Positions 754-5,116 of a stretch of 32,416 bases of DNA are shown here, piece by piece. The stretch is from the NCBI GenBank assembly GCA_030066715.1, contig JASJBC010000037.1, forward strand, positions 1 through 32,416, in the 5' to 3' direction. Origin of the DNA: Acidimicrobiia bacterium (GTDB lineage Bacteria > Actinomycetota > Acidimicrobiia > Spongiisociales > UBA5794). Each line of letters begins with the position of its first letter. Positions within the stretch are counted from its first letter, which is position 1. The notes below the pieces were generated by a model. That model was not told where the DNA came from, searched no databases, and saw only the letters and a list, made by a program, of their open reading frames with translations. Both the position numbers and the translations under genes were made by a program.

Positions 754-1335
754 GTGGAAACCGCCCTCTCTATCGCCATTGCGTATCTGCTCGGGAGCGT
801 CGACGCCGGGGTCATCGTCCCGCGCCTCATGGGTGTCGACATCTACGAGCATGGGAGCGGCAACCCCGGCGCTTCCAACGTGATGCGCACTCTGGGCAAG
901 AAGGCTGGTGCCGCAGTCATGCTCGTCGATGCGCTCAAAGGCTTTCTGGCGGCCCTGATCGGAGCCGCATTGGTGAGCGATGTCGTCGGCTTCTGGTGTG
1001 CACTGGCCGCTGTTGTTGGCCACGTGTTCCCGGTCTGGCATCGGTTTCGCGGGGGGCGGGGTGTCGCCACCGCCATCGGGGCGGTCCTCTTCTTGGAGCC
1101 TTGGTTCGGGCTCATCCTTGCCGTCGGCTGGGGTGGGATTGTCGCCCTCACCAAGACGGCGTCGATAGCTTCTTTGGGGGCAATGGCGGTGTACGTACCC
1201 GGATACGCGTTGTTCGGGTGGCGGGGCTGGGCGCTGCTTGCAGCGGCGCTGACGGCAGCGCTCGTGGTCGTCCGCCATGCCGCAAACATCCGAAGGCTGC
1301 TCGGGGGAAGCGAACAGACCGTGGAGGCGCAATGA
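754..1335 (+). CDS. plsY: Glycerol-3-phosphate acyltransferase PlsY
   Basis: 193 aa, GTG start; AYLLGSVDAGVIVPRLMGVDIYEHGSGNPGASNVMRTLGKKAGAAVMLVDALKG matches PlsY motifs; multi-TM. Confidence 0.93.
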   Translation: METALSIAIAYLLGSVDAGVIVPRLMGVDIYEHGSGNPGASNVMRTLGKKAGAAVMLVDALKGFLAALIGAALVSDVVGFWCALAAVVGHVFPVWHRFRGGRGVATAIGAVLFLEPWFGLILAVGWGGIVALTKTASIASLGAMAVYVPGYALFGWRGWALLAAALTAALVVVRHAANIRRLLGGSEQTVEAQ

Positions 1336-2570
1336 GACCTTTGCCTGAAGCACAGCGAGAGGTGCTGGCGGCCATCGACCAGTTGCCGACTGAGCGTATT
1401 GAGCTGGCTGCGGCCGCAGGTTTGGCGCTGGCAGAGCCGATTGTTGCCCGCCACGACCTTCCCCCATTCGCCAACTCTGCGATGGACGGTTACGCAGTGA
1501 TAGCCGCCGATGTCGTGAACGCACCGGTCACGCTCCCGGTGCTCGAGGACGTCGCTGCCGGCAGCGTGCCCACTTTGTCGGTGACTCCCGGCACCACGAT
1601 CAAGATCATGACCGGTGCTCCAATGCCGGACGGCGCTGATGCGGTCGTCCCGGTCGAGGACACTGAGCCGGGGCAGCGTGAGGTTCGGATTCTGGCCGGC
1701 GTTCCTGCGGGCGAGTCCGTGCGTCCGGCCGGTGACGACGTCGCCGCCGGTACCGTCGTGCTGAATGTCGGGGAGCGTCTCACCCCTCCTCGCCTCGGTG
1801 TCTGCTCGTCGCTCGGCTATGCCCGACCTCTGGTCCGGCGGCGGCCACGGGTCGCGATCATGTCGACCGGTGACGAAATCGTGCCCCCGGAGACTTCGCA
1901 GCTGGCCCCGGGCAAGATCCGCGATGCCAACCGATTCACCTTGCGCGGAGCGCTCGAGGAGGTAGGGGCGGATGTGGTCGACCTCGGCATCGTGGGCGAC
2001 GACGCCGACGAGCTCCGTGCCACCTTCGCTACGGCCGCTGCTTCTGCTGATGTCGTCGTGTCGAGCGGGGGCGTCTCGATGGGGGAGTATGACCTGGTCA
2101 AACACCTCCTTGCTGAGCTCGGGTCGGTCGACTTCTGGAAGGTGGCGATGAAGCCGGCCAAGCCGTTCGCCTTTGGGAGCCTGGGCGGGAAGCCGTTCTT
2201 CGGGCTCCCCGGCAATCCGGTTTCGGTCGCCGTGGCCTTCGAGCAGTTCCTCCGCCCGGCGCTGCTGCACATGATGGGATCGGACAAGCTCTTCCGGCCC
2301 CGGCTGCACGGGATCCTCGAGCAGGATGTCAAGACCGACCCGATGAAGATCGTCTTTCTGCGGGTGAACGTTGCCCCGGGTGCGGACGGGCTGCTCCGGG
2401 CGCACCTGAGCGGCGGGCAGGGCTCGAACATCCTCAGCGCCCTTGCTGCGGCAGACGCCTACGCCGCGATTCCCGTTGGCGTCGCTGAGGTTCCGGCTGG
2501 TTCAATGGTGGAGTTGGAGATGATGAAGATGCCGGAGGCGCGGACGGCAGCGGAGGTGACGGGTGGCTGA
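1332..2570 (+). CDS. moeA: Molybdopterin molybdotransferase MoeA / gephyrin-like protein
   Basis: ATG at 1332 overlaps the plsY stop (ATGA). Protein MRPLPEAQREVLAAIDQL...DLPPFANSAMDGYAV...VSSGGVSMGEYDLVK...KPFAFG...FFGLPGNPVSVAVAFEQFLRPAL is diagnostic of MoeA. The track ORF start (684) is an upstream extension in the same frame. Confidence 0.95.
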   Translation: MRPLPEAQREVLAAIDQLPTERIELAAAAGLALAEPIVARHDLPPFANSAMDGYAVIAADVVNAPVTLPVLEDVAAGSVPTLSVTPGTTIKIMTGAPMPDGADAVVPVEDTEPGQREVRILAGVPAGESVRPAGDDVAAGTVVLNVGERLTPPRLGVCSSLGYARPLVRRRPRVAIMSTGDEIVPPETSQLAPGKIRDANRFTLRGALEEVGADVVDLGIVGDDADELRATFATAAASADVVVSSGGVSMGEYDLVKHLLAELGSVDFWKVAMKPAKPFAFGSLGGKPFFGLPGNPVSVAVAFEQFLRPALLHMMGSDKLFRPRLHGILEQDVKTDPMKIVFLRVNVAPGADGLLRAHLSGGQGSNILSALAAADAYAAIPVGVAEVPAGSMVELEMMKMPEARTAAEVTGG

Positions 2571-3033
2571 AGGGTTCACCCATCTGGACGACCAAGGCAA
2601 CGCCCGGATGGTCGATGTCGGAGAGAAGTCCGTCACGGCGCGGGTCGCTGTTGCCGAAGCCGGGGTGCGCCTCTCCGCAGAGGTGAGGGAGAAGCTCTTC
2701 GCCGGGGACCTGCCCAAAGGCGACGCACTGGGCGTTGCCCGGGTAGCCGCGATCATGGCGGCGAAGCAGACACCAAACCTCATTCCCCTATGTCACCCGA
2801 TCGCGATTGATGGCGTGGACGTGGACATCCAGGAAACCGATACGGGGGCCCGGGTCGAGGTGACCGCACGCACCACGGCGAAGACTGGGATCGAGATGGA
2901 GGCGATGACTGCGGCTGCCATCGGGGCCGTTGCCATCTACGACATGGTGAAGGGGCTCGACCGATCCGCAGAGATCGATTCGGTGCGGCTGCTGGCAAAG
3001 AGCGGCGGCAAGTCGGGGGACTGGACTCGATGA
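2563..3033 (+). CDS. moaC: Cyclic pyranopterin monophosphate synthase MoaC
   Basis: 156 aa; FTHLDDQGNARMVDVGEKSVTARVAVAEA...KGDALGVARVAAIMAAKQTPNLIPLCHPI...TGIEMEAMTAAAIGAVAIYDMVKG. Confidence 0.96.
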   Translation: MAEGFTHLDDQGNARMVDVGEKSVTARVAVAEAGVRLSAEVREKLFAGDLPKGDALGVARVAAIMAAKQTPNLIPLCHPIAIDGVDVDIQETDTGARVEVTARTTAKTGIEMEAMTAAAIGAVAIYDMVKGLDRSAEIDSVRLLAKSGGKSGDWTR

Positions 3034-3509
3034 GAGCCGCCGTAGTCACTGTGAGTGACCGTGTCTCCCAGGGCACGGCCGAGGATCTCTCCGGCCCGGC
3101 GGCGGTGAATCGGCTCGCCGCCTACGGAATTGATGGTGCGAGCCTCCGCGTGGTGCCGGACGGGGTCGAGTCGGTCCGGTCCGCTCTCGAGGATCTGATG
3201 ACCGACCACGACCTCATCGTGACGACTGGAGGTACCGGATTCTCCCCGCGCGATGTGACTCCTGAGGCCACTCGCCTCGTGATCGACCGCGAAGCGCCGG
3301 GTCTCGCAGAGGCAATGAGGGCGGCCACTTTCGGCCGTTTTCCCCACGGCATGCTGTCCCGCGGCGTGTCCGGGATCGCCGGCTCGACCCTAATCGTCAA
3401 CCTCCCCGGGTCCGTCAAGGCGGTCGAGGAGTCGCTTGATATCATCGGTCCGGCTCTCAGCCATGGAATCGAATTGCTTATAGCCGGCCAAAGCGACCAC
3501 AATATGTGA
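3030..3509 (+). CDS. MogA/MoaB-family molybdopterin adenylyltransferase-like protein
   Basis: 159 aa; AAVVTVSDRVSQGTAEDLSG...LIVTTGGTGFSPRDVTPEATRLVIDREAPGLAEAMR...LSRGVSGIAGSTLIVNLPGSVKAVEESL; ATGA overlap with moaC. Confidence 0.92.
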   Translation: MRAAVVTVSDRVSQGTAEDLSGPAAVNRLAAYGIDGASLRVVPDGVESVRSALEDLMTDHDLIVTTGGTGFSPRDVTPEATRLVIDREAPGLAEAMRAATFGRFPHGMLSRGVSGIAGSTLIVNLPGSVKAVEESLDIIGPALSHGIELLIAGQSDHNM

Positions 3510-3594
3510 TCACCCGTATGGGACGGACGGGCCGAAATACTTGGCTGCACTCGAAGCAGTGCCTACGCTCAGTGGCGGGCGGAGTAAGGAACAG

Positions 3595-4038
3595 ATGGAA
3601 ATATTGGCCTTCCTGATCATCGGGGGCGTGTGGGCAGTCTTTTTGCTGCCCTCGTTCTTCGAAGGGCAGAAGAGTGCCTCCATGAGGTCGACTCGCAGTT
3701 TTGCGCGCAGCAACGACCTTCTTGCTTCCGTTGCGCTCCGTTCAGCCGACGAAGTCCGAGCCGCCAGCGGCGCAAGACGGCGGCGACGTCGTGCGGTGGC
3801 AATCCTGGGTTCTGGGGCTCTGGGCTCGCTTGGTGCCGCTGTCATCACGGGCAGCACGGTGTGGCTCGGCGTCACGATCTTCTTCGATGTTCTGCTGGCC
3901 GGGTTTGTGACTGCGCTGCTGCAGGCGAAAGCCGCCCGGTTCCAGCAAGTGGCCCCGGTGGTGTCCATCGATTCGGCGCAGGGTGGAGAGGCCACCGAGG
4001 TCGAGGCGATACCCACGATCCGGATCGTCGGAGCCTGA
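3595..4038 (+). CDS. Small membrane protein resembling GlpR (receptor of gephyrin-like Glp)
   Basis: From ATG 3595: MEILAFLIIGGVWAVFLLPSFFEGQKSASMRSTRSFARSND...RRRRRRAVAILGSGALGSLGAAVITGSTVWLGVTIFFDVLLAGFVTALLQAKAARF. N-terminal TM, soluble linker, Arg-rich cluster, then two TMs; lies downstream of moeA. Confidence 0.6.
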   Translation: MEILAFLIIGGVWAVFLLPSFFEGQKSASMRSTRSFARSNDLLASVALRSADEVRAASGARRRRRRAVAILGSGALGSLGAAVITGSTVWLGVTIFFDVLLAGFVTALLQAKAARFQQVAPVVSIDSAQGGEATEVEAIPTIRIVGA

Positions 4039-4662
4039 GTGGCTGACTCCCTGAACCTTGACTCGCTTGAAGCCGAAGTCCGCGCCGAACTCGACGAGAA
4101 GTTTGCGGCCCGGGAACTTGCGCTGAAGAACTGCCGGAAGATCATCCAGGCGTCCTCGAAAGCCATACGGGCACTGCACCGTGGCGACCTCGCCGATGCT
4201 GATGAGCTTCTCGCCGCAGGGCGGGCGCTGATCGATGAAGCCGAGGCGCCGCTCACCGAGCATCGTGACATCTACCACGCCGGGTTCTTCTACGACGCAG
4301 TGAAGGAGTACGCAGAGGCGGAACTGACCAAGGCTCTGGTTCTGCAACAGCCCCTGCCGCTGCCGTCCGATCTCGGGCTCCACGCAGTGCCGTACCTAAA
4401 GGGTCTTGGTGAGGCTGTCGGCGAGTTGCGACGGCGGCTCCTCGACCAACTGCGCAAGGGAGAGCTGGCAGAGGCCGAGGACACCTTTGCGGACATGGAG
4501 ACCATCCACGATCTTCTTGCCGCGTTGGACTACCCCGATGGCATGACCTCCTCGCTGCGCCGCACCACCGACGTGGCCCGCTCTCTGATCGAGCGCAGCC
4601 GTGCGGATCTGACGACGACCATCGTCCAAGAGCGGCTCCGCAGCCAACTCGAAGCCAACTGA
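4039..4662 (+). CDS. Translin-family protein
   Basis: 207 aa all-helical; CRKIIQASSKAIRALHRGDLADADELL...AGFFYDAVKEYAEAELTKALV...YLKGLGEAVGELRRRLLDQLRKGELAEAEDTFADMETIHDLLAALDYPDGMTSSLRRTTDVARSLIERSRADLTTTI resembles translin/TRAX (YLxGlgelvGELRR; YPd...LRrxxDvaRsLIexTraDLT). GTG immediately follows the TGA of the previous gene. Confidence 0.75.
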   Translation: MADSLNLDSLEAEVRAELDEKFAARELALKNCRKIIQASSKAIRALHRGDLADADELLAAGRALIDEAEAPLTEHRDIYHAGFFYDAVKEYAEAELTKALVLQQPLPLPSDLGLHAVPYLKGLGEAVGELRRRLLDQLRKGELAEAEDTFADMETIHDLLAALDYPDGMTSSLRRTTDVARSLIERSRADLTTTIVQERLRSQLEAN

Positions 4663-4687: not shown

Positions 4688-4761
4688 GGGGGTGTAGCTC
4701 AGTTCGGCAGAGCGCTACGTTCGCAACGTAGAAGTCACGGGTTCAAATCCCGTCACCTCCA
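4688..4761 (+). tRNA. tRNA-Ala (anticodon CGC)
   Basis: Cloverleaf: acceptor GGGGGTG/CACCTCC with G3:U70 (alanine identity element); anticodon stem-loop CTACG-TTCGCAA-CGTAG; T arm ACGGG-TTCAAAT-CCCGT; discriminator A; CCA not encoded. Confidence 0.93.
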
Positions 4762-4763
4762 CG

Positions 4764-4800
4764 AAGGGACCGTCCTACTCGGCCGGTCCCTTCTCCTATT
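4764..4800 (+). terminator. Rho-independent-like terminator after tRNA-Ala
   Basis: 9-bp perfect hairpin AAGGGACCG / CGGTCCCTT followed by a pyrimidine/T-rich tail ctccta. Confidence 0.65.
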
Positions 4801-4804
4801 CGAG

Positions 4805-4957
4805 CGGTGCGTTGGCGATAGGTTGTGTTTCCGCCTCCGGGATAGACCGTGGGATGGGCTGGTGGCCGGTTTGCCGTTTGGTTGGCGCGGGCGGGAGCAG
4901 GTTCAAATCCCGTCACCTCCACTGTGAGTGCATCCGATCATCAGATCGGATGCACTC
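4805..4957. repeat. tRNA-tail cassette copy A: spacer + 23-nt tRNA-Ala 3' tail + hairpin
   Basis: Shares cggtgcgttggcgataggtt...ccgcctccgggatagaccg...gcgggagcaggttcaaatcccgtcacctccac...gagtgcatccgatcatcag.tcggatgcac with copy B. The 23-nt tail (4900-4922) is identical to 4740-4762 of the tRNA locus. Hairpin arms 4926-4939 and 4944-4957 are a perfect 14 bp. Confidence 0.88.
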
Positions 4958-4968
4958 TTCTTCTAGGC

Positions 4969-5116
4969 CGGTGCGTTGGCGATAGGTTCTCATTCCGCCT
5001 CCGGGATAGACCGCAGGGTGGGCGATGGCCGATTCGCTGTGGCGGGTAGCGGGCGGGAGCAGGTTCAAATCCCGTCACCTCCACTCGAGTGCATCCGATC
5101 ATCAGCTCGGATGCAC
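4969..5116. repeat. tRNA-tail cassette copy B: spacer + 23-nt tRNA-Ala 3' tail + hairpin
   Basis: Second copy; tRNA tail at 5062-5084; hairpin arms GTGCATCCGA (5089-5098) and TCGGATGCAC (5107-5116). Confidence 0.88.

Follow-up and report, generated by a model that had tools for sequence, protein, structure and literature searches.

A short SepX/GlpR-like membrane protein beside an apparently ordinary MoeA in an operon of Acidimicrobiia

Introduction

The window, meaning the whole stretch of 32,416 nucleotides of an Acidimicrobiia bacterium analysed here, contains a gene for a small membrane protein downstream of moeA, moaC and mog. This arrangement raises the question of whether MoeA and the small protein form a Glp/GlpR pair, in which a MoeA paralogue (Glp) works with a membrane receptor (GlpR) in cell division, as the initial annotation had proposed for this deep actinobacterial lineage. 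The glp clade has been described as confined for the most part to the class Actinomycetes (PMC10522489), and homologues of SepX have been searched by BLAST from Streptomyces (PMC8748795). In the literature that we searched, no mention was found of SepX together with Acidimicrobiia.

We consider it probable that the small protein is a short SepX/GlpR component of the divisome, independent of MoeA, and that it stands beside an ordinary MoeA in a gene neighbourhood that was in place before the duplication giving rise to Glp. The evidence comes from the sequence of the two proteins, from their gene neighbourhood and from their distribution across the class.

The locus and its neighbourhood

The operon formed by plsY, moeA, moaC, mog and the small-protein gene is genuine and conserved across Acidimicrobiia (Table 1). 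ORF calls and Pfam matches agree with the initial annotation in placing a three-TM protein after moeA-moaC-mogA, and the ORF coordinates confirm the overlaps that it had described for moeA, of the ATGA type with plsY and of 8 bases with moaC. A further ATGA joins moaC to mog, 85 bases separate mog from the small-protein gene, and the next ORF starts directly after the latter. MoaA and MoaE are encoded elsewhere in the genome.

Table 1. Genes of the locus and segments of the small membrane protein, in window coordinates
Feature	Coordinates	Strand	Evidence or remark
plsY, glycerol-3-phosphate acyltransferase	754..1335	+	Pfam PF02660, E 5.6e-48
moeA, catalytic-type molybdopterin molybdotransferase (predicted)	1332..2570	+	PF03453/PF00994/PF03454
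moaC	2563..3033	+	TIGR00581 183.8 bits, exceeds cut-off
mog/moaB-type molybdopterin adenylyltransferase (MoCF_biosynth)	3030..3509	+	PF00994 106.5 bits; TIGR00177 exceeds cut-off
Short three-TM SepX/GlpR-family protein (putative), 147 aa	3595..4038	+	NCBIfam SepX_GlpR matches; kept in 54/60 relatives
TM1 of the small protein	3598..3660	+	W13, L17, P19 invariant or nearly so within the order
STRSFAR motif, residues 32-38, just inside TM1	3688..3708	+	T33, R34, F36, R38 nearly invariant (alignment A1)
RRRRRR cluster, residues 61-66, before TM2	3775..3792	+	R63, R64 invariant across class-level relatives
TM2-TM3 hairpin	3793..3927	+	region best matched by SepX/GlpR models
C-terminal peptide TIRIVGA	4015..4035	+	V142, R143, A146, G147 columns nearly invariant (A1)
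Neighbour ORF, 207 aa, PRK14562-like, weak Translin/DUF1771 matches	4039..4662	+	conserved beside SepX/GlpR-like gene in many lineages

Among relatives, moeA, moaC, mog and the downstream ORF flank the small-protein gene in nearly all loci long enough to show them. This constancy, added to the orthologues found in 54 of 60 relatives, establishes that the gene is no chance ORF. By hand count, moeA and the small-protein gene share a contig within about 3 kb in 44 of the 54 MoeA-bearing relatives. In three f7 genomes and in G015, moeA is found on a different contig from moaC, mog and the TM gene, which stay together, a reading limited by contig breaks; in G042, G049 and G015, the TM gene match was weak or the moaC-mog-TM order was read directly. 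The neighbourhood is of the glp/sepX type, its order matching that of the Streptomyces-like genome G249 (glp-moaC-mog-gap-sepX) and of several other classes, SepX/GlpR-like genes adjoining moeA-moaC-(mog) in several of them.

The small membrane protein

Pfam models find no match in the small protein. Hydropathy places TM1 at about residues 2-22 and a hydrophobic stretch fitting two further TMs at residues 67-111, and an AlphaFold2 model of low confidence (mean pLDDT 65) contains helices at residues 2-16, 51-85 and 88-119. Hydropathy, alignments and this low-confidence model concur on a layout of TM1, linker, TM2-TM3 and tail, and the N-terminal TM, STRSFAR linker, RRRRRR cluster and two additional TMs first noticed in the initial annotation are all found in sequence and hydropathy. 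Shared by the relatives throughout are WAxxLxP in TM1, an (S/T)xxxF motif, a stretch of basic residues, the hairpin of TM2 and TM3, and a tail that varies; the orthologues mostly finish this tail with a conserved (T/S)VRV(I/V)AG peptide. A PDB sequence search returned mainly HIV Env chains (E 0.077 and worse); these share a poly-Arg stretch by chance and were rejected as relatives.

Comparison with NCBIfam relates the protein to SepX_GlpR_4 (2.4e-5), SepX_GlpR_2 (1.9e-4) and SepX_GlpR_1 (0.0015), with a score of 24.5 bits against a curated cut-off of 110 bits. At the level of the order, SepX_GlpR_4 (NF050101) is matched by 22 of 22 orthologues (best 4e-9, all below the curated cut-off) and SepX_GlpR_1 (NF045516) by 21 of 22 (best 2.9e-8); despite significant E-values, no protein of this lineage reaches the curated SepX/GlpR cut-offs. 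The same models are matched by relatives from the class and from other classes, and a profile built on the order retrieves similar proteins across the phylum in 89 of 396 genomes (E <= 0.001; some weak). The gene of G249 is a bona fide sepX, scoring 223 bits against the SepX_GlpR_2 cut-off of 150 bits. Although the scores remain below the cut-offs, homology with SepX/GlpR is well supported by the profile matches, the synteny with G249 and the recurring motifs.

Comparison with the model proteins delimits this kinship. SepX of Streptomyces venezuelae (PMC8748795) has in common with the window protein the three TMs, the TM2-TM3 hairpin, the WAxxLxP of TM1 and the basic stretch before TM2, but it counts 344 aa, whereas the window protein has 147 aa, a 44-aa linker and a conserved VRV(I/V)AG end; the window locus also lacks the extra gene between mog and the sepX-like gene, and its protein scores below the curated cut-offs. 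GlpR (Cgl0885) of Corynebacterium glutamicum is likewise related by profile, has three TMs and lies near a moeA-family gene (PMC10522489). It carries two long disordered regions of opposite charge, of which IDR1 is acidic (residues 27-218, pI 4.05) and IDR2 basic (PMC10522489); in the window protein, the linker is basic (44 residues, pI 12) and the 36-aa tail at the place corresponding to IDR2 is acidic. The two long cytoplasmic disordered regions typical of SepX/GlpR in model species are thus missing from the small protein. Linkers and tails of intermediate length in other lineages show that the length of these regions varies within the family.

The relationship to GlpR put forward in the initial annotation stands as homology by profile, architecture and gene order, and stops short of the curated cut-offs and the long disordered regions. 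One of the cases that it had named as telling against its proposal, a separate bona fide glp/glpR pair elsewhere in the genome, was not encountered: no second GlpR-like gene was found in the window's genome, which is 76% complete. These data support placing the small protein in the SepX/GlpR divisome family as a divergent member, for which a role in division appears likely.

The neighbouring MoeA

The window MoeA comprises the three MoeA domains with their active-site residues. It is identical to E. coli MoeA at all 13 positions compared, which were picked because we take them to be active-site or conserved residues. The degenerate active site that characterizes Glp is thus not seen; in mycobacterial Glp, D228 is replaced by A, T or N, K279 by H, and D259 is changed in most cases (E. 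coli MoeA positions). Among solved structures, its best relative is E. coli MoeA (PDB 1fc5, 281 bits, with different gene neighbours) versus 168 bits for C. glutamicum Glp. The latter (Cgl0883, PDB 8bve/8bvf) shares with the window MoeA its fold and operon neighbourhood; the window MoeA differs in its preserved catalytic residues, its lack of the FtsZ-loop residues and its occurrence as a single copy.

The FtsZ-binding residues M361 and Y369 (C. glutamicum Glp numbering) are absent from the window MoeA, which reads A-PGAD-GLL. They are likewise absent from Streptomyces-like proteins above the Glp cut-off, so that in the sampled sequences the FtsZ loop is a feature of Corynebacteriales and its absence alone does not exclude a wider Glp role. 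Model scores are not decisive by themselves (PRK10680 399.6 bits, Glp_gephyrin 382, MoeA_actino 369), and the NCBIfam Glp model NF045515 is matched at 382 bits, below its cut-off of 475. The likely second hinge of the window MoeA reads RRRPRVA.

Counting moeA paralogues gave one MoeA in the window's genome (76% complete); a second PF00994 match on another contig is CinA and was rejected as a paralogue. Some relatives, including G012, G017, G029, G038, G045, G052 and others, have an extra tandem MoeA pair away from the operon; two proteins from such pairs lie on a very long branch and carry Ala where E. coli has R137.

In a MoeA tree with mainly Chloroflexota as outgroups, the Acidimicrobiia proteins form their own groups, and Glp shares a separate clade with the second Actinomycetia MoeA copies (SH-aLRT 98). 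A clade uniting Acidimicrobiia MoeA with Glp was rejected (p-AU 0.0097), placing the window MoeA outside Glp by both tree and AU test. Grouping Glp with every operonic MoeA to the exclusion of the second Actinomycetia copies was disfavoured (p-AU 0.033), so that simple vertical orthology between Glp and the window MoeA is not the best reading. These are quick trees with long branches, in which E. coli falls oddly among Acidimicrobiia, leaving the exact root unsure.

The equation of this MoeA with Glp in the initial annotation is not upheld, the catalytic residues being intact, the FtsZ-loop residues absent and the protein placed elsewhere than in the clade of Actinomycetia Glp and MoeA. What it resembles is an ordinary enzyme of the cofactor pathway rather than the specialised division partner Glp, and its residues suggest that it is catalytically active.

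The downstream ORF

The ORF following the small-protein gene occupies the same place in most Acidimicrobiia loci, in several other classes and in the MoeA-less genome G276. It could on this ground be the working partner of the small protein, the two forming a pair unrelated to MoeA and to SepX-type division, but the Streptomyces-like locus showed no homologue of it near sepX, nor did G223 and G255 beside the SepX/GlpR-like gene as far as their loci were read, and we regard such a pair as improbable.

Further downstream, the 3' end of a tRNA-Ala(CGC) gene (4688-4762) is repeated twice, at 4887-4923 and 5049-5085, recurring about every 160 bases, and a 30-base palindrome-like repeat accompanies these copies at 4926 and 5087 (region 4688-5116). 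These repeats are possibly integration-site remnants or a small repeat array.

Coupling of the two genes and division partners

Presence of the two proteins was surveyed by profile matches in 217 Acidimicrobiia genomes selected with a 90% completeness filter, the window's own genome being included. The membrane protein occurs in 205 of them and MoeA in 182; cross-tabulated by hand, 174 genomes have both, 31 the membrane protein only, 8 MoeA only and 4 neither. The membrane protein is thus kept in 31 of 35 MoeA-less genomes, spanning seven families that differ from the window's own, so that Glp/GlpR-type pairing is not the rule in the class. Among the MoeA-less genomes, some small ones in family f82 (4e-4 to 1.6e-7) and in part of f13 gave weak matches to the membrane protein; G223, G255 and G276 match SepX/GlpR models independently.

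MoaA was absent from all 14 MoeA-less genomes tested, 13 with the membrane protein and one without. MoeA is thus lost along with cofactor synthesis and is not kept for the sake of the membrane protein, which persists in its absence. This pattern speaks against an obligate partnership of the Glp type within the class. Two genomes with no MoaE match were considered as cofactor-free species keeping MoeA (G051, G059) and rejected, MoaA being present. A facultative partnership in species having both genes would be compatible with the linkage alone.

As for the FtsZ C-terminal tail and Wag31-type partner to which the initial annotation had pointed, both a conserved FtsZ tail and DivIVA-domain proteins were found. 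The FtsZ of the window's genome has EDDLDIPGFVSG as its C-terminus, most relatives having LDIP/FDVP-type tails, and DivIVA-domain proteins occur in 21 of 21 genomes tested, including the window's. Their presence shows that the players exist and no more. In the window's order, FtsZ mostly has an extra final Gly (LDIPGFVQG, LDIPDFLKG; L167, L179, L181, L182); the SepX/GlpR-like protein also ends in a hydrophobic stretch followed by AG, possibly by coincidence.

A true Glp/GlpR-like pair would require the single MoeA to make the cofactor and also to bind the membrane protein and FtsZ, as a moonlighting pre-duplication ancestor of Glp. The conserved tight linkage, the single MoeA of 165 among the 182 MoeA-bearing class genomes (hand count), a branching outside the Glp/MoeA duplication that would let both roles persist, and the FtsZ tail and DivIVA-domain proteins all fit such a pair; it is nevertheless unlikely, given the missing M361 and Y369, a linker that is short and basic where C. 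glutamicum GlpR has its long acidic IDR1 (PMC10522489), and the separate loss of MoeA. Of the deep Glp/GlpR pair first proposed, the SepX/GlpR-like protein finds support and the partnership does not, as MoeA lacks the Glp signature and the genes are lost separately. We also consider it unlikely that the single Acidimicrobiia MoeA is a moonlighting ancestor docking at the septum on the short SepX/GlpR protein, with a receptor partnership predating the Glp duplication. A service of the membrane protein in cofactor synthesis or molybdoenzyme assembly, such as tethering MoeA or Mog to the membrane, has in its favour the operon position beside moaC and mog, but is very unlikely for a homologue of a divisome family that is kept in 13 tested genomes without MoeA and MoaA.

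Proposed role and evolution

A short SepX/GlpR divisome component independent of MoeA is thus the reading we retain. The N-terminus of the protein would lie outside; TM1 would lead into a short basic linker on the cytoplasmic side, and the TM2-TM3 hairpin would be followed by a tail, also cytoplasmic, that finishes in VR(V/I)(I/V)AG. Since conservation is concentrated in the membrane segments and the residues adjoining them, it probably acts by self-assembly and membrane contacts with other division proteins. SepX has been reported to interact with itself and to contact DynB in Streptomyces, its conserved residues being those in the membrane (PMC8748795); the small protein may similarly sit at the septal membrane, self-assemble and contact division proteins through its membrane part, with the basic linker and the C-terminal VRV(I/V)AG peptide as candidate contact sites. 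In the window's organism, it would do so independently of MoeA, which would make the cofactor with MoaC and Mog.

The proximity of the two genes would be explained by an ancestral neighbourhood moeA-moaC-mog-sepX that predates the Actinomycetia Glp duplication, a MoeA copy having presumably been recruited as Glp later, within Actinomycetia. If this is true, Glp is younger than both the SepX/GlpR membrane protein and the position of its gene next to moeA-moaC-mog, and several lineages use the protein with no MoeA as partner. The order of evolution would then be testable, with the membrane protein and the neighbourhood coming first and the recruitment of a MoeA copy later.
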